This document shows positions 13,004 to 38,530 of a DNA stretch of 64,000 bases, piece after piece. The first letter of the stretch is position 1, and each line of letters begins with the position of its first letter. The notes beneath the pieces were generated by a model that ran no database searches, had not been told where the DNA came from, and worked only from the letters and a program-made list of their open reading frames with translations. The position numbers and the translations under genes are program-made. The DNA comes from Rhodohalobacter sulfatireducens (GTDB lineage: Bacteria > Bacteroidota > Rhodothermia > Balneolales > Balneolaceae): the NCBI RefSeq assembly GCF_022012475.1, contig NZ_JAKLWS010000005.1:124001-188000 (forward strand). Direction: 5' to 3'.

Positions 13004-14716
13004 TTAGTCCTCTTTAGGATTTTCTTCTTTATCGGAGGCCATCAACCTACGTGGAATTCGAATATCCTCCACCATATCCTGGATATCCTGGGGTGGTTCT
13101 TTCGTAAATTTCATGACTGTCAGTGCAACAATGAAATTCAGGATCATTCCCAGTGTACCGATTCCTTCAGGAGAAATTCCAAACAACCAATTTTCGGCAC
13201 TATTGAGTTCCGGGTTGATGAACGTAAAGTAGATAATGTAAGCAGCCGTAAATGTAATTCCGGCAGCCATTCCGGCTATTGCTCCCTCTTTGTTCATTCG
13301 CTTAAAGAAAATACCCATGAGGATAACGGGGAAGAACGATGAAGCCGCCAAACCGAACGCAAAGGCCACAGTTTGGGCTACAAAACCCGGGGGATTAACC
13401 CCAAAGTAACCGGCAATTAAAACAGTAAAGAACACAGTAACCCGCGCCGCAATCAGTTCTGTTTTCTCACGCATTGTGGGTATGAACGTTCGTTTCAATA
13501 AATCATGTGCAATGGCTGTAGCAAGAACCAGGAGTAGGCCTGCTGCCGTTGAAAGTGCTGCTGCCAATCCGCCTGCTGCAACCAAACCTACAACCCAGTT
13601 TGGCAGATCGGCAATTTCCGGGCTGGCAAGCACCATAATATCCGGATCGATAGAGAGCTCGTTAATTGAGGGATCTGAGTGATATTGTATCAGGCCATCG
13701 TCGTTCGAATCCTCATATTGAAGCAATCCGGTAGCCTCCCAGTTGTGAAACCATTGTGGTGCCTCACTGTATTCTACTTTGTCTATATCATTGATCAAAT
13801 TGGTTTTTACAAAAGCAGCAACGGCAGGAGCTGTACTATACAGAAGTACAATAAAAATAAGTGCATATCCGGCAGATATTCGAGCATCTTTTACCTTTGG
13901 AACCGTAAAAAATCGAATAATTACGTGCGGCAATCCTGCTGTTCCGACCATCAATGCGGCCGTTATAAAGAAAACGTCAATGGGTAATTTTGTACCATCC
14001 GTATATGGCGTAAATCCAAGATCTGTCATCAATCCATCCAAGCGATCCAAAAGATATACGCTGGGTTCGTCTGCCAGTGTACCGCCAAATCCTATTTGTG
14101 GAATGGGGTTCCCTGTCATTAAAATCGAAACAAATATGACGGGAACGAGATAGGCGAAAATCAATACACAGTATTGAGCAACCTGGGTGTAGGTAATACC
14201 TTTCATGCCACCCAATACGGCGTAAAAGAACACGATTATCATTCCAATGATGACGCCCTGGTTAATCCCCACATCCAAAAACCGTGAAAATACAATTCCA
14301 ACGCCCCGCATCTGCCCGGCCACATAGGTGAATGATATAAAGACCGCACAGAGAATGGCTACAACCCGAGCAGTACTGGAATAATACCGGTCACCCACAA
14401 AATCGGGGACAGTAAACTTCCCAAATTTTCGAAGATAAGGTGCCAGCAAGAGAGCTAACAGAACATATCCGCCCGTCCATCCCATCAGGTACACCGATCC
14501 ATCGTATCCAAGAAATGCAATTAAACCGGCCATCGAAATAAATGATGCCGCTGACATCCAATCCGCAGCTGTGGCCAATCCATTGGCTAAGGGGTGAACC
14601 CGCCCCCCTGCTACATAAAAATCACTCGTTGATCCAACACGTGCCCACACAGCAATACCTATGTAAAGCGCAAATGTGATCCCTACGATTATAAATGTCC
14701 AAACTTGTATACTCAT
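13004..14716 (-). CDS. Sodium:solute symporter large subunit (VC2705/ActP-like)
   Basis: A 570-residue SSS-family transporter with about 13 hydrophobic segments. It is like acetate permease ActP and the VC2705 subfamily, shown by FYVAGGRVHPLANGLATAADWMSAASF near the N-terminus and FTYVAGQMRGVGIVFSRFL. These proteins import short-chain carboxylates such as acetate with Na+. A ~50-residue acidic loop (LINDIDKV to ASPEIADLP) interrupts the middle. Its partner is the DUF4212 small protein 40 bp upstream on the same strand, the usual two-gene order for this subfamily. The substrate is inferred; no acs gene is in the window. Confidence 0.88.
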   Translation of the reverse strand: MSIQVWTFIIVGITFALYIGIAVWARVGSTSDFYVAGGRVHPLANGLATAADWMSAASFISMAGLIAFLGYDGSVYLMGWTGGYVLLALLLAPYLRKFGKFTVPDFVGDRYYSSTARVVAILCAVFISFTYVAGQMRGVGIVFSRFLDVGINQGVIIGMIIVFFYAVLGGMKGITYTQVAQYCVLIFAYLVPVIFVSILMTGNPIPQIGFGGTLADEPSVYLLDRLDGLMTDLGFTPYTDGTKLPIDVFFITAALMVGTAGLPHVIIRFFTVPKVKDARISAGYALIFIVLLYSTAPAVAAFVKTNLINDIDKVEYSEAPQWFHNWEATGLLQYEDSNDDGLIQYHSDPSINELSIDPDIMVLASPEIADLPNWVVGLVAAGGLAAALSTAAGLLLVLATAIAHDLLKRTFIPTMREKTELIAARVTVFFTVLIAGYFGVNPPGFVAQTVAFAFGLAASSFFPVILMGIFFKRMNKEGAIAGMAAGITFTAAYIIYFTFINPELNSAENWLFGISPEGIGTLGMILNFIVALTVMKFTKEPPQDIQDMVEDIRIPRRLMASDKEENPKED

Positions 14717-25590: not shown

Positions 25591-25776
25591 TCAAAATGAT
25601 CTAACTCCTTCTCTTTCCGAGTTTTTAGAATTTTTTAAGAATTGGTCTTTCGCTGCTTTTCCTCTCTTTTTGTACCACTCTAACAACTCTTTGCGAGTCA
25701 AATCTTTCGTCTCTTCATAATTTTTTTCTCGAATTCTCCGAGTCGTTTCAACCGTATCAAAATCTTTATTCTTCAT
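25591..25776 (-). CDS. Probable antitoxin partner of the PIN protein
   Basis: A 61-residue, strongly charged protein. It resembles the short companions of stand-alone PIN toxins, beginning with FDTVETTRRIRE and containing YEETKDLTRKELLEWY, a pattern I recognise from such pairs. It has no visible DNA-binding fold. Its start overlaps the end of the PIN gene by 11 bp, so the order is toxin first, antitoxin second, the reverse of classical vapBC. A terminator follows. The antitoxin role is inferred from pairing and size. Confidence 0.65.
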   Translation of the reverse strand: MKNKDFDTVETTRRIREKNYEETKDLTRKELLEWYKKRGKAAKDQFLKNSKNSEREGVRSF

Positions 25777-26230
25777 AATTTATCACCTCGCGTGGTGAAT
25801 AAATGTCAATGGTTTTGAGCCCACTTTCTAAGTTAACGGCATTAAACAGCCGAATCTTATCATCATGGACAATATGCCGAAAATTCCAGCTACCTAAAAC
25901 ATCTACGTTGGCAAGTGAAGCCAGGGCGATATGTAAAGCATCATCACGGAATTTTGGCGTCAAAATTTCTTTTCTCAAATACTCTTCAGATAACTCAAGC
26001 GCTGATTCTGTGATTTCAAGTATTTCAGGATCATGTTCTATTAACTGTTTTAATATTCCCTTAACCGGATTAGGTGCTCTGCTGATTTCGTCAAATGTCA
26101 ATTCCGATAAGACAGGTAGATAATTTTTCAAACGAAAATCTTTCATCAGTCCGTTCGACCAACTCTTGAATTCTTTATCAAGGCAACCTCCAATCACAGA
26201 AGTATCCAGATATATTCTTGATATTTCCAT
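25766..26230 (-). CDS. PIN-domain toxin-like ribonuclease
   Basis: A 154-residue PIN-domain protein. The acidic residues expected to hold Mg are visible: Asp8-Thr-Ser in IYLDTSVIGG, Glu in ELTFDEIS, and Asp in RDDALHIALA. The C-terminal GSWNFRHIV is typical of the branch paired with a short FDTV-type antitoxin. These proteins cleave RNA and arrest growth when the antitoxin is lost. The gene is first in a two-gene unit and lies between two near-identical terminators, next to an AT-rich orphan. It could also be an inactive relic, but the active-site residues are intact. Confidence 0.8.
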   Translation of the reverse strand: MEISRIYLDTSVIGGCLDKEFKSWSNGLMKDFRLKNYLPVLSELTFDEISRAPNPVKGILKQLIEHDPEILEITESALELSEEYLRKEILTPKFRDDALHIALASLANVDVLGSWNFRHIVHDDKIRLFNAVNLESGLKTIDIYSPREVINYEE

Positions 26231-28867: not shown

Positions 28868-30409
28868 CTAATCCACTTTCAACGTACCCTCAGGATACTT
28901 TTCATCCAGATCTCTCAAATCGATATTCAGGTCTCCACGCAAATATTTATCAAAGAATGCGAGTGAATACTCGTTGATCAGTTCCGTGGCATAATACGGA
29001 TCCGCATCTCCTGCTTCGTTTATGGACTGAAGAGGTATCAAAAAGGGAATATCACTGAAATTACTGTGGCCAAAACCATTTACTTTTAAATCGTAGATAA
29101 CTGTATCACTCCCATTGTGATAGATCAAATCGTTCGGAGCAAACGTAGCTGAATCCCGAACAGCTTCAATTCTAAGAAATGGATGTGCAAGTGTTGAATC
29201 GATCATATCTGCCCACTGGGCGCCATCCCAGTTAATACCCGCTTTTACTCTTCGATCGGTGAGCATAAGCTGACCGGCAGTTGCCCCACCTGCTGAATGG
29301 CCAAATGCCCCGATCTTATCCAGATTTAATTTGCCGGAAAATCGATTATTGGCTTGTGAGTTCATCCCTTGCAATTCATCGATCACAAATGATAGATCTT
29401 CAGCCCATTTGCGCATCATCTCTGCATTGGGATATAGATCAGATATTTCGCGAATAATATCTCGTTTAACCGAATCGCTGCCAGCAGCCCAAAATTTCTC
29501 TTCGAGTTTTACAATCTGTTCCCAGACATTTTCAAAATTTTTAGATTCATACCGGTAATCAAAAGAAACCTTTCTGCCATCCGGGTAAACCGTTGCCACC
29601 GATTGATAGGGATGATTAACCGCAAAAATTATGTAACCGTGACTGGCAATTTCACCCATAAACGATGAATATGTTGCAGGCGGAACATTATATCCATGAG
29701 AAAAAAGAAGTACCGGAAACGTAGCTTCTTGATCAGATACGTGCAGATTTTCATAAGCAAAGGTTTCAATATGCTTCAGATGGTTCAAAGTAAATGCCGG
29801 TAGTCCATATTTCTTTGCAAAATATTCCGCTTCAAACGGGTGCATATAGTCCATTTGGGTACCACCGGAATTTGAATTATCTGAAGGATACCAGGCACGA
29901 ACCATCAACGTTCGATGATCGTCCGGGTCTTCTGTGATGATCTCCTCCCTGTTGGTATCCTCGAGCATTAAGGTTGTTGTGCCCACCATATATGAGCCTG
30001 TGGGTTCAGGAAGTTCAAAAACCGGAAGTATAGATCCTAAAGCGGCGGATACAATCAATAGAAGAATTGCACCAAATCCGCCAATAAATCGCCCCCATTT
30101 CCGATCCTGAATGGCTGATAATTTACTTGGATGATTCAAGAGCCGAATCGAATTCAAAAGGAAGAGAAAAGTTAGAAAATAAGCCGGAATCATTTGCCAT
30201 CGAACTCCTTCAAACAGTGCATGCAGAAGCAGGAATAGGAGTGCAAGAAAAGGCAAATAGTGAAGAAACTTCGCTCTGTTAGCTGGTTTAAGGAACAGTG
30301 TGCAGGCAGAAGTAGATAGAGAGATCAGAGCACATATTTCAAAAAATTGCATAGCAATATTAGATCTTTGATTGTGAGACCCGGATAGTAAAACCGGGAC
30401 TCGATTCAT
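28868..30409 (-). CDS. PAF-acetylhydrolase-like membrane hydrolase
   Basis: A 513-residue protein with about four N-terminal membrane helices (~20-135) and an alpha/beta-hydrolase domain like platelet-activating-factor acetylhydrolase. The nucleophile is Ser in FGHSAGGATAG, the acid probably Asp in NWDGAQWAD, and the base His in NGFGHSNFSD. HGYNVPPATYSS fits the oxyanion region. It may hydrolyse short or oxidised acyl esters of lipids. The frame opens at 30409; the internal ATG at 30352 (MQFFEICALI) places the first helix directly after the start and is equally plausible. The MotA/ExbB-like gene lies 49 bp upstream on the same strand. Confidence 0.75.
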   Translation of the reverse strand: MNRVPVLLSGSHNQRSNIAMQFFEICALISLSTSACTLFLKPANRAKFLHYLPFLALLFLLLHALFEGVRWQMIPAYFLTFLFLLNSIRLLNHPSKLSAIQDRKWGRFIGGFGAILLLIVSAALGSILPVFELPEPTGSYMVGTTTLMLEDTNREEIITEDPDDHRTLMVRAWYPSDNSNSGGTQMDYMHPFEAEYFAKKYGLPAFTLNHLKHIETFAYENLHVSDQEATFPVLLFSHGYNVPPATYSSFMGEIASHGYIIFAVNHPYQSVATVYPDGRKVSFDYRYESKNFENVWEQIVKLEEKFWAAGSDSVKRDIIREISDLYPNAEMMRKWAEDLSFVIDELQGMNSQANNRFSGKLNLDKIGAFGHSAGGATAGQLMLTDRRVKAGINWDGAQWADMIDSTLAHPFLRIEAVRDSATFAPNDLIYHNGSDTVIYDLKVNGFGHSNFSDIPFLIPLQSINEAGDADPYYATELINEYSLAFFDKYLRGDLNIDLRDLDEKYPEGTLKVD

Positions 30410-30963: not shown

Positions 30964-31731
30964 ATGAAGGCAGGCAAACATATACTTTTTTGGTTTTTAG
31001 CCGGTGCGATACTTGTCGTAGGCTTTGGAAATAGTTATGGTGACTATATTAAGAGCTTCTATTTTGTCACCTTCTTGCTGCCGGTAGCGATGGCTACCTC
31101 ATATTTCTTCAACTATTACCTGGTACCAAAATTCCTACTTGAACAAAACTATGTTCAGTTTACAATTTATACGATATACACCATAATCGTATCACTCTAC
31201 CTGGAGATGGTTGTCGTTACAATTTCATTTGTTGTCCTGGCAAACTACAACTATGACCAACTCGACCCGATGATGACAAACATATTCGTACTCGGGTTTG
31301 CTGTGTATCTTATTGTACTCATAAAGGCCTTCTATCTTCTCTTCCTGCGTGTGAAAAACAATGAATTCAAAGTCCAGCAGCTGGTTGAAGAAAAAGAGGC
31401 GTTGAAAACAGAATTTATTACGGTTCGGGCAGATCGAAAAAATCACCAGGTGAAACTGGATGAGATCACATATATCGAAAGCCTCAGCGACTATGTTAAG
31501 ATTCACTTCAACAATCAAACCCTTACAACAAGGGAAACAATCACTTCTTTTGATAAATCTCTTCCTGAGACCTTTATCCGAATTCACCGCTCATATATCG
31601 TTAATCAAGATCACGTGAGTAATTTCAATTCAACCTCAGTAGATATTGGTGATTTAGAATTGCCAATCAGCCGAACTTATAAATCTGATGCGATTGCTTT
31701 ACTTGAAGGGTCTCACTCCTCAGTCTCGTAA
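30964..31731 (+). CDS. Membrane-embedded LytTR transcription regulator
   Basis: A 255-residue regulator. Four hydrophobic segments occupy ~1-125, then a short coiled linker (VKNNEFKVQQLVEEKEALK), then a LytTR DNA-binding domain (~145-250). Landmarks are LDEITYIESLSDYVKIH, FIRIHRSYIVNQDHV and LELPISRTYK. It has no receiver domain, so it resembles one-component membrane LytTR proteins that sense a membrane or external signal directly. It is divergent from the ExbB-like/PAF-AH-like pair across ~145 bp and may control it. The choline transporter is convergent downstream. Confidence 0.85.
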   Translation: MKAGKHILFWFLAGAILVVGFGNSYGDYIKSFYFVTFLLPVAMATSYFFNYYLVPKFLLEQNYVQFTIYTIYTIIVSLYLEMVVVTISFVVLANYNYDQLDPMMTNIFVLGFAVYLIVLIKAFYLLFLRVKNNEFKVQQLVEEKEALKTEFITVRADRKNHQVKLDEITYIESLSDYVKIHFNNQTLTTRETITSFDKSLPETFIRIHRSYIVNQDHVSNFNSTSVDIGDLELPISRTYKSDAIALLEGSHSSVS

Positions 31732-31737
31732 AAAAGA

Positions 31738-33315
31738 TCAACGCAAAAGTGATCGAATTCTGGAGACAACTATAATTGTCATTAAACCCGATACCATCGC
31801 CAATGTTCGGAAAGGAAACAGGTTTACCCCGTCTTCAATCATAGGGTAAGGCAGTAAAATGGGAATTCCCAAAGTGACATCTCCCCCACCGAATCGAAGA
31901 ACGGCCGCAACCATAAATCCTGCAACTGCACCGGTTGCATTGGCTTTGGGGTCAAACAGTGCACAGACGAGTGCCGGGAAAAGTAAACAATACACAAAAT
32001 CGCTGCAGAGAAACCAAAGTTCATAAACACTTTGAATATTGAGGGCAATCAGCATTGCTGCTATCCCGATGATCCAAATCATTCTCTGGACAAGTTTTCG
32101 AAGTGATTTTGTATCAACATTTGGTTTGAAGAGTGGGCGGTATACGTTCCATCCCGACATGGATGAAGCAGAAAGTATGGATGAATCAGCCGAGGACATT
32201 ACAGCAGCAGCAACTGCACCCAAACCGATAATTCCTGCCCAGGCCGGTGTTAGGTATCGAATCACCCATGGCAAAATTGAAGCTGCATCTGGCGGTGCAG
32301 GAGCCCCAAGAGAACTCCAGTCGGCAACCTGACCCGCAATGCCAATCACAACAGCAGGAACGGCCGCAAGAAGGCACACAAAACCCGCAATGACCGATAA
32401 ACGAACCGCTGTTTTTTCATCACGAGAAGCGAGAACTCTTTGAAAGTACACTTGCCAGGGAATACCGCCGAGGCTAAGTAAAAGAGCATAATCCCACCAG
32501 TTCCAGTAATAGTTCCCGAGCGCTTCTTTGCTGGGCAGAAAACTTGCGGCAGCACCAAACTGTTGTTGATATTGATCCCAGGCCGCCGGCCATCCTCCAA
32601 CTGCATCAAGCGCAAAAGGGAGTGTGAGAGTAAGCCCGACAAAAAGCAGGATAAGTTGTATAAAGTCAGTTAATGCAACCGCCCAGAGTCCTCCAAGGGC
32701 GGTATACGCTATGGTAATTACGGCGGAAAGAACAATTGCCGTTTCTGTATCCAATCCGGCGATGGCACCAAACGTAGTGCCAAGGGCCGTGAGAATTGCT
32801 GCAGTCCAAAATATTTCTCCGGAGAGAGCGGGAAGAAAAAATAGAGCTGATACCCGTTTCCCGAATTTCTCCTCCAGCGGATCCAACATGGTTCGATATC
32901 CCTTACGCCTCATCTTTCGGGCAAAAAACAGTCCACCAATAATCAGGCTCAACGCATATCCCCAGGGAGCTTGCACCCACACCAATCCAGAACTGTAGGT
33001 ATATTCTGCTGTTCCATTAATGTAGCCCCCTCCCACCCAGGTTGCACTCATGGTAAAAATCGCGAGAAAAAGTGGAAGTTGCCGGCCAGCAAGTAGAAAG
33101 CTGTCGGTATCATTATCTTTTCGGAGCTGTGTGGCATAGGCTCCAATCCCAAAGATCAGGGAGTAGAAAACCATCATAGAAAGATAAGCCGGCCAGCTCA
33201 GGGGATTGTCCGTAAAGAAATGGATTCCAAGTCCGCCCACTAACAAAAGCCCAATCAACCATAGTGCCGGACGCAATGCCCCCAGAAATCCGTTTTTCAT
33301 TTTTTCATTATTCAT
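31738..33315 (-). CDS. SLC5A7/CHT1-like sodium-choline symporter
   Basis: A 525-residue SSS-family transporter with ~13 helices. It shares unusually long signatures with animal high-affinity choline transporters: ATWVGGGYINGTAE, APWGYALSLIIGGLFFA, KGYRTMLDPLEEKFGKR, GGIPWQVYFQRVLAS and AAVMSSADSSILSASSM. It should import choline with Na+. The frame opens at 33366, but ATG 33315 (or 33300) leaves a short cytoplasmic N-terminus and avoids overlap with the divergent gene. That gene is phosphatidylcholine synthase, 61 bp away, which supports choline as substrate. Confidence 0.88.
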   Translation of the reverse strand: MNNEKMKNGFLGALRPALWLIGLLLVGGLGIHFFTDNPLSWPAYLSMMVFYSLIFGIGAYATQLRKDNDTDSFLLAGRQLPLFLAIFTMSATWVGGGYINGTAEYTYSSGLVWVQAPWGYALSLIIGGLFFARKMRRKGYRTMLDPLEEKFGKRVSALFFLPALSGEIFWTAAILTALGTTFGAIAGLDTETAIVLSAVITIAYTALGGLWAVALTDFIQLILLFVGLTLTLPFALDAVGGWPAAWDQYQQQFGAAASFLPSKEALGNYYWNWWDYALLLSLGGIPWQVYFQRVLASRDEKTAVRLSVIAGFVCLLAAVPAVVIGIAGQVADWSSLGAPAPPDAASILPWVIRYLTPAWAGIIGLGAVAAAVMSSADSSILSASSMSGWNVYRPLFKPNVDTKSLRKLVQRMIWIIGIAAMLIALNIQSVYELWFLCSDFVYCLLFPALVCALFDPKANATGAVAGFMVAAVLRFGGGDVTLGIPILLPYPMIEDGVNLFPFRTLAMVSGLMTIIVVSRIRSLLR

Positions 33316-33376
33316 TCTTCGGCAAAAAATAGTTATATATGCTGACACTTCTAACAGCAATATCAATCAGATAAAC

Positions 33377-34078
33377 ATGAAGTTGGAACGACTGAAGGCA
33401 TGGCTCGTTCATATTTTTACTGCAAGTGGAGTTATAACCGTATTTATGGCCCTCATTGCAGCTGCTGAAAATGATTTTAGAGCCGCTATGTTGTGGCTCA
33501 TCGCGGCTCAACTGATCGATGGAGTGGATGGCACACTGGCCCGGCGTTACAAAGTTCAGGAGGTACTTCCTAATGTAAGCGGTAAAAGTATCGACTTTGT
33601 GATAGACTTCTGCGGCTATGCAGTTGTACCTGCTTTTATAATTTATCAAGCTCCATTGATGCAAGAATGGATTGATCTGTTTATGGCTCTTCTGATTGTC
33701 TTTACCTCTGCAATTTACTACGGCAGAACCGGAATGATTACTGACGATTATTATTTTAAGGGATTCCCGGTAATGTGGAACATGGCGGCATTCTATTTTA
33801 TTTTCATTTTCAATTTTCCCGCAACTCTCAATGCCATCCTGCTCTTCTTGCTTGCCTTGATGCAGTTCCTGCCAATAAAATTTGCTTACCCGAGTATGAC
33901 GATCCGTTGGAGGCCTTTCACATTAATTTTTACAGCAATTCTTTTGGTTTCCATGACAGGCTTACTCATTTTTTATCCCGACTATCCTGGTTTTTTGTAT
34001 TGGGGTCCTATTGTCAGCCTTGTATACTTTGCTTTTTTTGGATTTGCAGCAACCTTCATTCATGAGGAGGATTTCTAA
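33377..34078 (+). CDS. pcs: Phosphatidylcholine synthase
   Basis: A 233-residue CDP-alcohol phosphotransferase that condenses CDP-diacylglycerol with choline to phosphatidylcholine in one step, in the inner membrane. It has VHIFTASG near the start, the catalytic CDP-AP signature DGVDGTLARRYKVQEVLPN followed by SGKSIDFVIDF, YYFKGFPVMWNM in the middle, and ~8 helices, all in the order of rhizobial Pcs. The frame is open upstream to 33206, but ATG 33377 gives the family N-terminus (MKLERLKAWLVHIFTASG). It is divergent from the CHT-like choline symporter, forming an uptake-and-use module. Confidence 0.93.
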   Translation: MKLERLKAWLVHIFTASGVITVFMALIAAAENDFRAAMLWLIAAQLIDGVDGTLARRYKVQEVLPNVSGKSIDFVIDFCGYAVVPAFIIYQAPLMQEWIDLFMALLIVFTSAIYYGRTGMITDDYYFKGFPVMWNMAAFYFIFIFNFPATLNAILLFLLALMQFLPIKFAYPSMTIRWRPFTLIFTAILLVSMTGLLIFYPDYPGFLYWGPIVSLVYFAFFGFAATFIHEEDF

Positions 34079-34209: not shown

Positions 34210-35154
34210 ATGACTGAAGACGAGAAACGGGAAGCATTCCGGGAACGAATTGATAAAGGTGAAAAAATTGAACCTAAAGACTGGATGCCCGAACAATACA
34301 AACAACAGTTAATTCGCATGATGAGCCAGCATGCCCATTCCGAAATTGTAGGCATGCTGCCGGAAGGAAACTGGATTACAAGAGCTCCCTCCCTGAAACG
34401 AAAGATTGTACTGCTTGCAAAAGTTCAGGATGAGGCCGGCCACGGAATGTATCTTTACAGTGCTACTGAAACCTTGGGAGTTCGGCGGCAGGATTTAATC
34501 GAAGATTACCTTTATGGCACTGCCAAGTATTCAAGCATATTCAACTATCCCACGTTAACATTCGCCGATATTTGTGTGATTGGATGGCTCGTCGATGGCG
34601 CAGCGATTGTAAATCAAACCATGTTGGCGAAATCATCTTACGGACCCTATTCGCGAGCAAACATTCGCATTTGCAAGGAGGAAAGTTTTCACAAGAAACA
34701 GGGATATGAAATGCTCGCAAAAATGGCTGATGGGACATCGGACCAGCAAAAAATGGCTCAAGATGCTGTTAACCGTTGGTGGTGGCCAACATTGATGATG
34801 TTCGGTCCTCACGATGAAGATTCTCCAAACAGCGCAGAACTGATCAAGTGGGGAGTGAAAACCAAAACAAATGATGAGCTCCGACAGGATTTTGTGGACA
34901 GAACCGTCATGGAAGCCAAGGCGATTGGCGTTACTCTCCCCGATCCGGAACTTAAATATAACGAGGAAACCGGGCACTGGGAGTTTGGTGAAATTCCATG
35001 GGATGAATTTTGGAGTGTTATAAAGGGCAACGGCCCGATGAATCGTGAACGAATGAAGACGCGCAGAAAAGCCTATGAAGAGGGTGAGTGGGTTCGAGAA
35101 GCGGCAATGGAATATGCAAGAAAAAGGAAATTGAAAGATGAAAAGGCTTCATAA
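34210..35154 (+). CDS. paaA: Phenylacetyl-CoA epoxidase subunit PaaA (catalytic)
   Basis: The 314-residue catalytic subunit of the di-iron multicomponent epoxidase that converts phenylacetyl-CoA to its ring 1,2-epoxide with O2 and NADPH. Iron-ligand motifs are visible: DEAGH in [14 protein letters not shown] and the EESFH box in [38 protein letters not shown] at the start is typical of PaaA. It is the first gene of a cluster running paaA-B-C-D-G-H-I on this strand. The spacers are 100-180 bp, longer than a tight operon, and contain repeats. Confidence 0.96.
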
Positions 35155-35292
35155 AATTCTCTCCTCTTGGGAGAGGAAAGTAAAATAAGCGTTTAGCGAA
35201 TGAACACGGGGTGGGTTAAACCTTTTATCTGTATAAAACCAGATTATTATTCAAATCTAAAATACGCCACCCTAAAAAATAAATTTTCAACA

Positions 35293-35598
35293 ATGTCCGA
35301 AAATTCTAAAAACAAAACTGAATGGCCGCTTTGGGAAGTTTTCTATCAACCCAAAGATGGGAAACCGTTTGAACATGCCGGCAGCATACACGCCGCCGAT
35401 TCAGAGATGGCATTACAAAATGCACGTGATACCTATGCACGGAGAAATGAAGGAATTGCCATTTGGGTAGTTCCATCTGATCAGATTACTGCATCCACCA
35501 CAGAGGACGAGGAACCATTCTTTGATCCGGCTGATGACAAACCCTATCGGCACCCGCAATTTTACAGTACACCGAGAGCGGTTAAAAAGAGGAAATAA
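35293..35598 (+). CDS. paaB: Phenylacetyl-CoA epoxidase subunit PaaB
   Basis: A 101-residue PaaB subunit of the epoxidase complex, thought to bridge PaaA-PaaC units. WPLWEVFYQPKDGKPFEHAG and the later ALQNARDTYARRNEG are family signatures, and the C-terminal half (FFDPADDKPYRHPQFY) fits PaaB. The open frame begins at 35200, but ATG 35293 (MSENSKNKTEWPLWEV) gives the normal length and composition. It starts 138 bp after paaA. Confidence 0.94.
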   Translation: MSENSKNKTEWPLWEVFYQPKDGKPFEHAGSIHAADSEMALQNARDTYARRNEGIAIWVVPSDQITASTTEDEEPFFDPADDKPYRHPQFYSTPRAVKKRK

Positions 35599-35608
35599 AT
35601 GAATAGTA

Positions 35609-35680
35609 AGTAGCAAGAATTGAGTATCAGGACTTTCTCGTCTATCAATAATTGCTACTCGAAACTTAATACTTGTTACT
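35609..35680. repeat. Inverted repeat between paaB and paaC
   Basis: agtagcaagaattgagtat (35609-35627) is an imperfect reverse complement of the segment at 35662-35680. The adjoining DNA repeats ACTCGAAACTTAATACTT and ACTCGATACTTAATACTT in tandem. It sits in the 102-bp spacer before paaC. The words resemble those flanking 18477-18690. It may form a stem-loop within the paa transcript. Confidence 0.5.
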
Positions 35681-35700
35681 CGATACTTAATACTTAACCT

Positions 35701-36489
35701 ATGAGCACCACCGATATCAAACCAAAAACTAAAGTGAAGCTACTCGTTGAAATGATACTTCGGCTGGCAGACGACCGTCTGATTCATGGCCATCGACTTT
35801 CAGAGTGGACAGGCCATGGCCCGGAATTGGAGGAAGATCTTGCACTTGCTAATATGGCCCTCGATATGATTGGGCACGCTGCAGCTCTGTATGGATATGC
35901 CGCTGGGATTGAGGGAAAAGAGGATGAAGATTATTACGCGTATTTCCGCGATGACATCGATTTTAAAAATGTGGCGATGGTAGAGCTTCCCAAAGGCGAC
36001 TTTGCATTTACAATGGCTCGCCAATTTCTATTTAGTGCATACAGTTATTTCCTGTATCAAAAACTGATCGAGACTGTTCAGGATGAACAATTCAACGGGA
36101 TGCTACAGAAACACTTCAAGGAGATAAAATATCATTTGCGACACAGCCGGGAATGGATTTTACGGTTGGGGGATGGAACTGAAGAGAGTCACAAAAGAAT
36201 CCAGGGTGCTTTCGATGAAATCTGGATGTACACCGGAGAACTTTTTGATTTAGATGAGGTGGATCAATCTGCGATTGAACAGGGTTTATTTGTGGATGTT
36301 ACTACTTTCAAAGATGAGTGGAAAAATTTGGTTAATGAAGTATTAGAAGAAGCTACTCTCGATGTTCCTGATGACGATCAATACATGTTTTCAGGAGCGA
36401 GACAGGGCCGGCATACTGAGTATTTAGGCAGATTGCTTGCTGAAATGCAGTTCTTGAGAAGATCATACCCGGATGCAGAGTGGAAGTGA
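35701..36489 (+). CDS. paaC: Phenylacetyl-CoA epoxidase subunit PaaC (structural)
   Basis: A 262-residue non-catalytic partner of PaaA. ADDRLIHGHRLSEWTGHGPELEEDLALANMALDMIGHA and MARQFLFSAYSYFLYQ are characteristic. The metal-ligand set of PaaA is not kept, as expected for the PaaC structural subunit. It pairs with PaaA in the core heterodimers of the complex. It follows paaB by 102 bp and precedes a MITE-like repeat. Confidence 0.95.
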   Translation: MSTTDIKPKTKVKLLVEMILRLADDRLIHGHRLSEWTGHGPELEEDLALANMALDMIGHAAALYGYAAGIEGKEDEDYYAYFRDDIDFKNVAMVELPKGDFAFTMARQFLFSAYSYFLYQKLIETVQDEQFNGMLQKHFKEIKYHLRHSREWILRLGDGTEESHKRIQGAFDEIWMYTGELFDLDEVDQSAIEQGLFVDVTTFKDEWKNLVNEVLEEATLDVPDDDQYMFSGARQGRHTEYLGRLLAEMQFLRRSYPDAEWK

Positions 36490-36491
36490 AA

Positions 36492-36623
36492 GTACAAAGG
36501 GCAGCTTGCCCGTTAATTCAAAATGAAGATCCAACTTACTAACAACTATTAAATGTATTGATGTTCCACTGTTTCTTACAATAAATCACGATTGTCAACT
36601 ACCGAACAAGCTGTCCGGCGTAC
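36492..36623. repeat. MITE-like ~131-bp repeat, copy 1 (before paaD)
   Basis: A 132-bp element beginning GTACAAAGGGCAGCTTGCCC and ending CCGAACAAGCTGTCCGGCGTAC (last 17 bases given here as part of the 36601-36623 end). The first ~41 bp and last ~30 bp closely match 37147-37277 in the same orientation, while the middle differs. The two ends are imperfect inverted repeats of each other (~24 nt), and each end is itself a hairpin. It occupies nearly the whole paaC-paaD spacer and ends 6 bp before the paaD start. Confidence 0.65.
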
Positions 36624-36629
36624 AACTGA

Positions 36630-37142
36630 ATGAACGAAACTGAACCCATATCAAAATCCAAGATCTGGTCGTGCCTTGAAGAAGTCTTCGATCCGGAGAT
36701 CCCCGTGTTAAATATCGTGGAGATGGGCATTGTGCGTGGTATTGAGATGGAATCTGAAATGGTGACCATTAAAATCACCCCAACATATTCCGGCTGCCCT
36801 GCGATGAATGCCATTGAAATGGAGATTCAAAAAAAACTTAATGAAAAAGGGATCGAATCATTCAGAGTTTTGACCGATTATAAAGAAACATGGACAACCG
36901 ATTGGATGACAAACGAGGCAAAACAAAAATTGAAAGAGTACGGCATCGCCCCTCCCGGTAAAACAGATGTCGATTCCGATAATTACCTTATTGGGTTAAA
37001 AAACTCACAAAAAACCGTGCCTTGCCCCTATTGCGATTCCACCGATACAAAACTGCAAAGTGAATTTGGCTCCACGGCCTGTAAAGCACAGTATTATTGC
37101 CATAGTTGTGACCAGCCCTTTGAACATTTTAAATGTATTTAA
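36630..37142 (+). CDS. paaD: Phenylacetyl-CoA epoxidase-associated PaaD
   Basis: A 170-residue protein, normal for PaaD. An N-terminal MIP18/DUF59-like domain (~1-85; EEVFDPEIPVLNIVEMGIV, TPTYSGCPAMNAIE) precedes a cysteine-rich C-terminus: CPYC, CHSC and a late Cys in FKCI. PaaD helps assemble or mature the iron centres of the epoxidase. A short ORF-free stretch surrounds it, because two copies of a 131-bp repeat flank it. The start is ATG 36630. Confidence 0.93.
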   Translation: MNETEPISKSKIWSCLEEVFDPEIPVLNIVEMGIVRGIEMESEMVTIKITPTYSGCPAMNAIEMEIQKKLNEKGIESFRVLTDYKETWTTDWMTNEAKQKLKEYGIAPPGKTDVDSDNYLIGLKNSQKTVPCPYCDSTDTKLQSEFGSTACKAQYYCHSCDQPFEHFKCI

Positions 37143-37146
37143 TACT

Positions 37147-37277
37147 GTACAACGGGTAGCCTGCCCGTTACTTTAAAATGAACAATCCAGTTATTTTTAA
37201 ATTTTTGAGATGAGATTTTTTTTGTTCAAAGCAAATAATCTGCGACTAACAACTGCCGGACAAGCTTTCCGGCGTAC
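37147..37277. repeat. MITE-like ~131-bp repeat, copy 2 (after paaD)
   Basis: A 131-bp element beginning 5 bp after the paaD stop. It starts GTACAACGGGTAGCCTGCCC and ends in a hairpin whose last bases are TTTCCGGCGTAC. Its ends match copy 1 (36492-36623), same orientation, similar length. The start and the reverse complement of the end share GTAC..CGG..AGC.TG.CCG. The A/T-rich centre is not shared with copy 1. Confidence 0.65.
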
Positions 37278-37324
37278 TTATTTCGGTCATACTTACATCT
37301 GCTAAATACTCAACACTTTAATGT

Positions 37325-38110
37325 ATGCCTTTAATATTAACAGAAACCTCAGACCAAATCCTCACCATCACTCTCAACCGGCCCGAGAAATACAACAGCT
37401 TTACCGAACCGATGGCTTTGCAGCTGCAAGAGGCGCTAAAGGAAGCCGAGTCAGAAGAGATTCGGTGTGTGGCACTGAAAGCCAATGGCAAAGCGTTTTG
37501 CGGGGGACAAGATCTGCCTGAAGTAGTTGATCGGGCTGAGAACGAAGATGGCTATGAACTCTCAGATACAGTTCGTACAAGTTACAATCCAATCATCCGC
37601 GCGATTAGACATATGCCAAAACCGGTGATATGTGCCGTTCAAGGTACCGTTGCCGGAGCAGGAGCGAATATTGCATTTGCATGTGATGTTGTAATAGCAT
37701 CAAATGAGGCAGTATTCATCCAGGCATTTAGTAAAATTGGTTTGATTCCAGACAGCGGCGGAACATTCTTTTTGCCTCGATTGATAGGATTCGCCCGCAC
37801 GAATGCACTCTATCTATTGGATGAAAAAATCAGCGCTGACAAAGCGGTTGAGATTGGCTTGATTTATAAGTCCGTGAAAGCAAATCAACTTGATGATGAA
37901 GTTAAATCCATTACTAAAAAATTATCGTCAATGCCTACGAAAGCTTTTGGACTCTATAAAGATGCGATCAATCAAACGTTTGAAAATGATTTGGATCAAC
38001 AACTTTCCCTGGAAGCAGATCTGCAGAGTGAGGCCGGGAAATCAGACGATTACCAGGAGGGTGTGCAGGCTTTTTTGGAGAAACGAAAACCGAGTTTCAA
38101 AGGAACGTAG
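37325..38110 (+). CDS. paaG: Enoyl-CoA hydratase/isomerase, PaaG-like
   Basis: A 261-residue crotonase-fold protein. The oxyanion loops are KAFCGGQDLPEV and VAGAGANIAFACD, with the substrate-side loop SKIGLIPDSGGTFFLPR. In PaaG the enzyme converts the ring epoxide to the oxepin form and later handles enoyl isomerisation. The SGGT..LPR motif and place after paaABCD favour PaaG over PaaF. The start ATG 37325 overlaps an out-of-frame ATG at 37321. The vapBC-like pair follows on the other strand, only 10 bp after the stop. Confidence 0.85.
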   Translation: MPLILTETSDQILTITLNRPEKYNSFTEPMALQLQEALKEAESEEIRCVALKANGKAFCGGQDLPEVVDRAENEDGYELSDTVRTSYNPIIRAIRHMPKPVICAVQGTVAGAGANIAFACDVVIASNEAVFIQAFSKIGLIPDSGGTFFLPRLIGFARTNALYLLDEKISADKAVEIGLIYKSVKANQLDDEVKSITKKLSSMPTKAFGLYKDAINQTFENDLDQQLSLEADLQSEAGKSDDYQEGVQAFLEKRKPSFKGT

Positions 38111-38119
38111 AAAAGTTTT

Positions 38120-38530
38120 TTAGACATACTCAAGATGATGCCCAAATGGGGTGTTTTTCATTCCGTTAAAAAATCGTTTATCCGAAGTAAATATTTTTTG
38201 ATCGAATTCAATTCCAACGGCGAGATAGCAAGCATCGTAGAGAGTGATTGACAATCCTGACGAAAGATCAAATGCTATTTCAGAGATCGTAGAATAGGGA
38301 ATAATTTTAATAGGGAAATTTCGGGTCTCTTCATGCATTTTTTTGGCATCTTCGAGATCAATTAATCGTTGTCGTACTTTCTTCGTAATTATTGCATCCA
38401 TTTCAATGAAGAAAAGATCTGGAGCAATCATATTATTGTGATTTTTTAAAATTTCGACTGCCACTTCGTGCCCTCTTTCAGGCAAAAACCACTTGATTGC
38501 TACACAAGCATCTATCACAGGTATACTCAT
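38120..38530 (-). CDS. vapC: VapC-type PIN toxin
   Basis: A 136-residue PIN-domain ribonuclease. The expected acidic residues are present: Asp7 (VIDACVAIKWF), Glu in FFIEMDAI, Asp in LYDACYLAVG and Asp in FTSDKRFF. VapC toxins cleave initiator tRNA or rRNA when free. The gene start overlaps the antitoxin stop by 4 bp (ATGA). The pair lies on the strand opposite to the paa genes, between paaG and paaH, which is how I know it is an insertion or an unusual neighbour. Confidence 0.88.
   Translation of the reverse strand: MSIPVIDACVAIKWFLPERGHEVAVEILKNHNNMIAPDLFFIEMDAIITKKVRQRLIDLEDAKKMHEETRNFPIKIIPYSTISEIAFDLSSGLSITLYDACYLAVGIEFDQKIFTSDKRFFNGMKNTPFGHHLEYV

Follow-up and report, generated by a model that had tools for sequence, protein, structure and literature searches.

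A divergent gene pair encoding a CHT-type symporter and a predicted phosphatidylcholine synthase forms a putative choline-to-membrane-lipid cassette in Rhodohalobacter sulfatireducens

A stretch of 64,000 nucleotides from Rhodohalobacter sulfatireducens (contig NZ_JAKLWS010000005.1, positions 124,001 to 188,000 of the forward strand; hereafter the window, whose coordinates are used throughout) carries two back-to-back genes that very probably form a choline-to-membrane-lipid cassette, in which choline import would feed the synthesis of phosphatidylcholine (PC). The first gene, on the minus strand (33315..31738), encodes a protein of 525 aa that we identified as a predicted Na+/choline symporter of the CHT (SLC5A7) type. 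The second, on the plus strand (33377..34078), encodes a putative phosphatidylcholine synthase (Pcs) of 233 aa. The open reading frames (ORFs) were listed from TTG codons at 33366 and 33206, respectively, and the ATG codons at 33315 and 33377 are better starts. Exactly 61 bases (33316..33376) separate the two ATG codons. A preliminary description of this DNA had reported the divergent pair and its 61 bp gap, and both observations were borne out. In the mechanism that we propose, the symporter would take up external choline on the inward Na+ gradient, using two Na+ sites and possibly a Cl- cofactor, and Pcs, in the inner membrane, would form PC and CMP from the imported choline and CDP-diacylglycerol. 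The intergenic region may be a shared control region, divergent transcription from which may keep the two genes under common control.

The long ORF of the first gene contains an SSF domain (PF00474, E 1.3e-37, residues 90-486). When this protein was compared with solved structures using phmmer, it matched sfCHT of Salimicrobium flavidum (PDB 9RWS/9RWT; Sci Adv 2026), described as a Na+-dependent choline transporter sensitive to hemicholinium-3 (HC-3) (PMC13220886), with 639 bits (E 6.1e-191) and human CHT1 with 395 bits (E 4.7e-117). The best other SSF structure, a sodium/glucose cotransporter, reached 70 bits (E 1.4e-18), so that the likeness to CHT is far beyond chance. The symporter is identical to sfCHT at 294 of 503 aligned residues (58%) and to human CHT1 at 221 of 469 (47%). 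Two signatures quoted in the preliminary description as shared with SLC5A7, ATWVGGGYINGTAE and SSADSSILSASSM, are indeed present, each aligning with human CHT1 without a mismatch. We then read the positions to which roles are assigned in PMC11589582 and PMC13220886. All six aromatic residues of the choline cage are kept (W93, Y98, Y120, W170, W287 and W434, corresponding to human W62, Y67, Y91, W141, W254 and W406), as are the residues of the Na2 site (A91, V94, A371, S374, S375) and of the Na3 site (D217, D377, S378), and all the Cl- loop glycines checked by alignment to human CHT1 and sfCHT are present. The exit-path serine (S263 in the human protein, S307 in sfCHT) is replaced by Ala, and the HC-3-related human residues S243 and Y407 by Tyr and Phe. 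In a comparison of 101 bacterial CHT rows (distinct sequences, those below 480 aa excluded, the window protein perhaps being counted twice), the positions of human W62, Y91, W141, W254 and W406 were invariant in 101 of 101; the Y67 position was Tyr in 76 and Phe in 25, and one row had Ala at four Na+-site positions. Most cage positions differ in eight SSF paralogues of the window genome: W254 is Trp in five of the eight and W141 in none, so that none of them keeps the full cage set. Since the window genome gives 16 SSF matches, two of which are pieces of one gene, membership of this superfamily is ordinary there, which is not true of the CHT type. From its identity to sfCHT and human CHT1 and from the retention of the checked cage and ion sites, the symporter is thus, by sequence, a new member of the known CHT family, and we infer that it carries out Na+-dependent choline transport. 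The window holds a second SSF symporter, of another subfamily (13004-14716, minus strand), which lacks at least the W141 cage position.

When the second gene was compared with NCBIfam, the top five matches were all Pcs models, with E-values from 2.1e-52 (NF045884) to 1.1e-39, and the next match is at 1.8e-12; its best family is thus Pcs, not PssA or the archaeal serine/inositol synthases. The protein contains a CDP-alcohol phosphatidyltransferase domain (PF01066, E 1.2e-5), and residues 51-77 hold the full motif DGX2ARX8PX3GX3DX3D, in the form given in section 8 of PMC7867332. This motif is strictly present in all but one (G018) of 42 Pcs rows. The window protein is 40.5% identical to the annotated pcs product of Sinorhizobium meliloti; Legionella and Pseudomonas Pcs were also among the sequence matches and were left out of the comparison. 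A phmmer search of solved structures up to E 1 returned nine weak matches (antibody chains and a polymerase-like protein) and no relative. The score of the window protein lies below the curated cut-off of all five matched Pcs models (178 bits against 350 for NF045884). The NF045884 cut-off was passed by none of 28 genomes of the window's genus, none of 35 genomes surveyed for Pcs (those of 33 CHT loci, with G091 and G202) and none of the 199 genomes of the Saprospiraceae-type family considered below; from their names, all five models appear specific to particular lineages. The naming of the second gene as Pcs, made in the preliminary description, is borne out by the ranking of the models, with scores below their cut-offs, and PC would be its predicted product.

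We looked for the same gene pair in other genomes. A collection described as covering 84,980 species was scanned; 225 relatives were confirmed, and the best 80 of them were kept. Pcs was found within the retrieved flanks of 43 of these 80 loci, many flanks ending at contig ends, and was the immediate divergent neighbour in 30 of 79 CHT-tagged loci, as counted by eye. The association was then read in whole genomes of the Saprospiraceae-type family that holds Neolewinella, Aureispira and Flavilitoribacter (f32, 199 genomes), a group recognised from places that coincide with those in the genomes of named loci. Cultivated bearers of the cassette include Phaeodactylibacter xiamenensis (L017) and Neolewinella lacunae (L078). 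There, CHT was present in 65 genomes and Pcs in 73; 64 genomes had both, nine Pcs alone, one CHT alone and 125 neither (Fisher test, 5.1e-41), so that Pcs occurred in 64 of 65 genomes with CHT and in nine of 134 without it. The two genes lay on one contig in 49 of the 64 genomes, within 1 kb in 40, all of them divergent, and within 5 kb in eight more (seven divergent, one in the same direction). A table at the level of genera, also counted by eye, gave 41 with both genes, one with CHT only, four with Pcs only and 65 with neither. In the single genome with CHT and no Pcs (G611), the transporter stands in a betB-betA-CHT row in which both enzymes score above their curated cut-offs. Nine stretches from CHT-free genomes of this family that have Pcs were examined: none showed a recognisable CHT, BCCT or bet gene next to Pcs, and in one of them (L202) a Pcs-like ORF was itself not recognised. 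Two CHT-free genomes carry tandem Pcs-like genes (L204:5612-7071 and L209:5242-6674), whose copies clearly differ, being about 43% and 61% identical to one reference. In wider samples, CHT was present in 12 of 217 genomes of the window's class (at least 80% complete) and in seven of 392 from its phylum (completeness of 90% or more), and it was found in one plasmid record at E 1e-60. Since the pairing recurs in dozens of other bacteria, it suggests that a CHT-type importer feeds lipid synthesis. The earlier proposal of a two-gene module for choline uptake and lipid synthesis thus receives strong support from the conserved divergent linkage, the co-occurrence, the intact choline and ion sites and the Pcs motif, and the predicted function follows from these features.

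The pair is unevenly distributed in the window's own genus. Among its 28 genomes, CHT was found in eight and Pcs in 12, Pcs being present in eight of eight genomes with CHT and in four of 20 without. The divergent cassette occurs in three of them, the window genome (G000), G025 and G027. In G027 (L010:3005-3076) the first 24 or so residues of CHT are in another frame, owing either to a frameshift or to faulty assembly close to the N terminus. The CHT proteins of the other five genomes are about 63-65% identical to that of the window, and Pcs was not seen in the short CHT stretches retrieved from them. Their Pcs proteins form a separate clade; the two that were read (G023 and G021) share about 33% identity with the window protein. 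Near this second type of Pcs, in the same two genomes, lie genes that we take to be uppS, bamA, skp and rnhB. In G000, G025 and G027 the corresponding site lacks any Pcs-like ORF, and the same is true of the Pcs-free genomes G001 and G024. Loss of a native Pcs from the window genome was considered and not upheld, the empty site fitting two separate gains equally well.

Phylogenetic trees suggested a source for the cassette. In the CHT tree, the window protein grouped with those of G027, G025, GSL.Bin30 and Phaeodactylibacter (support 100/99), inside the Saprospiraceae-type, Pcs-linked CHTs, and monophyly of the genus was rejected by the approximately unbiased (AU) test (p-AU 1.07e-35). One locus (L048) had been left out of the first CHT tree and was restored in a later one. 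The Pcs tree gave the same grouping, with a weaker rejection of a genus clade (p-AU 0.029). In a CHT search of the window's class, the gene was found in groups f1, f2 and f5 only and the f32 genomes were labelled 'same phylum', which places the Saprospiraceae family outside the window's class. The window pair is therefore nested in Saprospiraceae pairs and apart from the CHTs of its own genus, and the cassette was probably acquired by horizontal transfer from another class. It may be old in Saprospiraceae-type bacteria and would have entered the window's lineage as one piece. Movement in the other direction, from the window's class to Saprospiraceae, or acquisition by both from a third source, appears rather unlikely. 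The direction is deduced from nesting alone, and contigs of metagenome-assembled genomes such as GSL.Bin30 can be mis-binned. Against these alternatives, both trees nest the three genomes with the window-type cassette inside a wide Saprospiraceae-type diversity. In addition, G660 and G661, from the window's order, carry a second, separately placed cassette, whose CHT groups with that of the Saprospiraceae locus L036; the same locus is also the best match by score for its Pcs, as repeated import would give. The preliminary description had recommended a test of the origin of Pcs in this lineage, and this proved fruitful, as the immediate source appears to be other Bacteroidota of the Saprospiraceae type, in a Pcs tree with only two proteobacterial rows.

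Besides the low scores of Pcs against the curated models, several observations weigh against a cassette devoted to PC synthesis and against its transfer. In the Saprospiraceae-type family, 15 of the 64 pairs lie on different contigs and one pair is 12 kb apart, and the co-occurrence counts ignore kinship, save in the table of genera. The clades submitted to the AU tests were picked once part of the data had been inspected, and elsewhere in the Pcs tree long branches meet. Finally, in five of the eight CHT-containing genomes of the genus, Pcs is of the other type and on another contig; CHT is followed by betA in two (G023 and G011) and adjoins outer-membrane SusC/SusD-type and phosphoesterase genes in two (G021 and G006). 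CHT is thus not committed to PC synthesis everywhere. The neighbours of CHT in G021 were identified by Pfam as SusD, a TonB-dependent receptor and a metallophosphoesterase, other labels in this set being given by likeness. Pfam recognised a type I phosphodiesterase fragment beside CHT in G006; a match of this kind fell slightly short of the cut-off in G023, in which the outer-membrane and phosphoesterase genes are on the upstream side of CHT. At these three loci (L170, L171 and L173 in G021, G006 and G023), the neighbours may perhaps work together in releasing choline from phosphodiesters ahead of its uptake.

A rival reading, with betA directly after CHT in G023 and G011 of the window's own genus in its favour, is that choline imported by the symporter goes chiefly into glycine betaine (osmoprotection) or serves as a carbon and nitrogen source, and that the nearness of the transporter to Pcs is incidental. 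The physiological role of prokaryotic CHTs is presented as unclear in the sfCHT paper, whose authors suggest osmoadaptation and carbon/nitrogen supply (PMC13220886). We found that CHT often sits with either Pcs or betaine-synthesis genes. Genomes from 33 of the 80 loci were surveyed for Pcs, together with G091 and G202 (the latter apparently identical to G432). Among the 33, Pcs was absent from ten of ten genomes with a betaine-context CHT, as against two of 23 other CHT genomes. At the CHT loci of these two (G437 and G440), betaine genes are not among the neighbours; a partial match to betA was obtained in G440. A betB-type aldehyde dehydrogenase is present in all ten betaine-context loci, confirmed by NCBIfam in L089 and assigned by clustering or tblastn in the others, and betA scores above its curated cut-off in eight of the ten genomes. 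Echinicola and Arenibacter have strains with CHT in the betaine context. The oxidoreductase next to CHT at the two Algoriphagus aquimarinus loci shares no more than about 32% identity with betA. In Priestia megaterium, betB and an iron alcohol dehydrogenase lie opposite CHT on a plasmid, and on one contig from Chitinophagales (L073) the genes for Pcs, CHT and a GMC oxidoreductase follow one another. Neither set of genes was seen at further CHT loci, in some cases owing to contig ends. Parsimony on the CHT tree required two context changes among 39 labelled rows, with several forks unresolved, so that the partnership with Pcs or with betaine genes looks old and seldom switched. In the window genome, G025 and G027, no match to betA (TIGR01810) was obtained at E 1e-100, other choline oxidases not having been searched for, and all three have a separate BCCT carrier. 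Both results argue against conversion to betaine as the chief use of choline in the window genome. As Pcs is moreover within 1 kb of CHT, and always divergent, in 40 of the 64 Saprospiraceae-type genomes, and as none of the ten betaine-context genomes surveyed has Pcs, we regard a primarily osmoprotective or nutritional role of the window symporter as improbable, and import of choline for PC synthesis as the preferred reading.

Transport of another quaternary amine or organic cation (such as betaine, carnitine or ethanolamine derivatives), with Pcs using a choline analogue, is still less credible: SSF proteins transport many solutes and choline is the predicted substrate, but the choline cage is complete whereas most of its positions differ in the eight paralogues of the same genome, the protein is 58% identical to a proven choline transporter, and in either context, Pcs or betaine, the enzymes linked to CHT use choline or the product of its oxidation as their substrate.

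The preliminary description had also suggested that the symporter might illuminate the ancestry of eukaryotic high-affinity choline transport. This part fared less well. Human CHT1 grouped with the CHTs of Salimicrobium and Priestia (100/100, three rows), on a branch of 2.93, and not with the window lineage. A tree with the human protein outside all bacterial CHTs was not rejected (p-AU 0.259). In view of the long human branch and of this result, we make no claim on animal ancestry from a tree that holds one animal sequence and few rows from outside Bacteroidota; bacterial CHTs were moreover already known (PMC13220886). A wider scenario, in which bacterial CHTs are exchangeable importers that travel with the choline enzyme of their host (Pcs or BetAB/GbsAB) and an ancient transfer gave rise to animal CHT1 from within them, with the Bacillota branch as its closest relative, is one that we put forward as speculative and doubtful.

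Among known systems, sfCHT is the nearest, sharing with the window protein the same choline, Na2, Na3 and exit-path residues over the 503 aligned positions, apart from S307. Its host, a member of Bacillota, belongs to another phylum than the window's. Human CHT1 has the same aromatic cage, both Na+ sites and the Cl- loop over 469 residues; it differs at S243 and Y407 and in feeding neuronal acetylcholine synthesis, not a lipid synthase. In Brucella, the importer ChoXWV supplies choline to Pcs (PMC8371380). The route from imported choline and CDP-diacylglycerol to PC through Pcs would be the same, but Brucella is described as using a three-gene ChoXWV system in its own operons, where the window has a CHT-family Na+ symporter directly beside Pcs. 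In choline-to-betaine modules (betAB or gbsAB with a carrier), the same type of CHT is the linked carrier in other genomes, whereas the enzyme linked in the window is Pcs. The transporter family is thus already known. A CHT-type carrier paired with Pcs was not found in the literature searched, most subscription journals and bioRxiv being outside its coverage. The text of the sfCHT paper does not contain 'Pcs' and has 'phosphatidylcholine' solely in the title of a reference; its Discussion opens with the general remark that prokaryotic membranes contain choline as one of their components (PMC13220886). PC is described as abundant in eukaryotes and rare in prokaryotes (PMC8371380). It has been reported in Fodinibius (PMC12260241), and Balneolaceae are described as split into PC makers and phosphatidylglycerol (PG) makers (PMC5167729). 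Both reports fit the cassette, if the window's lineage is Balneolaceae, and the cassette might then give a genetic reason for the presence of PC in some members of this family and not in others. The linkage to Pcs gives a large branch of CHTs a specific, testable role, the supply of choline for PC synthesis, and the CHT mechanism might be studied in a bacterium that carries the cassette naturally.

We also examined the spacer of the cassette. The block AAAAAATAGTTATATATG in the 61 bp region is kept in G025 and G027 and has one change in GSL.Bin30 in the alignment; the 17 of 18 bases common to the window and GSL.Bin30 fit transfer of the whole unit. No sigma-70-like promoter was found in 33200-33500, and the window contains no Rfam family above its gathering score and no tRNA. 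Across 48 CHT-Pcs intergenic regions, TAnnTTTG was weakly enriched (in 19 regions, against a shuffle mean of 10.5 and a maximum of 16). Beyond this, no regulatory motif common to the regions in general emerged. The commonest 8-mers in these regions, TGGAGTGT and its complement (16 regions), resemble the start of the Pcs coding sequence.

On the other side of CHT, a gene for a LytTR-domain protein (30964..31731, plus strand; Pfam LytTR, E 5.6e-18) converges on its 3' end with a gap of 6 bp. This neighbour is kept in G025 and G027 with 78-82% identity and was not found in the other annotated CHT stretches (L170-L174, L017 and L018). The LytTR protein is a possible regulator of the pair. A PAF-acetylhydrolase-like protein (PF03403) is encoded nearby (28868-30409, minus strand), also beside the cassette in G025 and G027. 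Directly after Pcs lies a phenylacetate degradation cluster (34210-38110, plus strand), which adjoins the cassette in G027 and not in G025. PaaA was identified in it by NCBIfam, and from their position we take the other genes to be presumably PaaB, PaaC, PaaD and an enoyl-CoA hydratase-like gene. Two short ORFs of the window (25766-26230 and 38120-38530, both on the minus strand) presumably belong to PIN-type toxin genes, which they seem to resemble.

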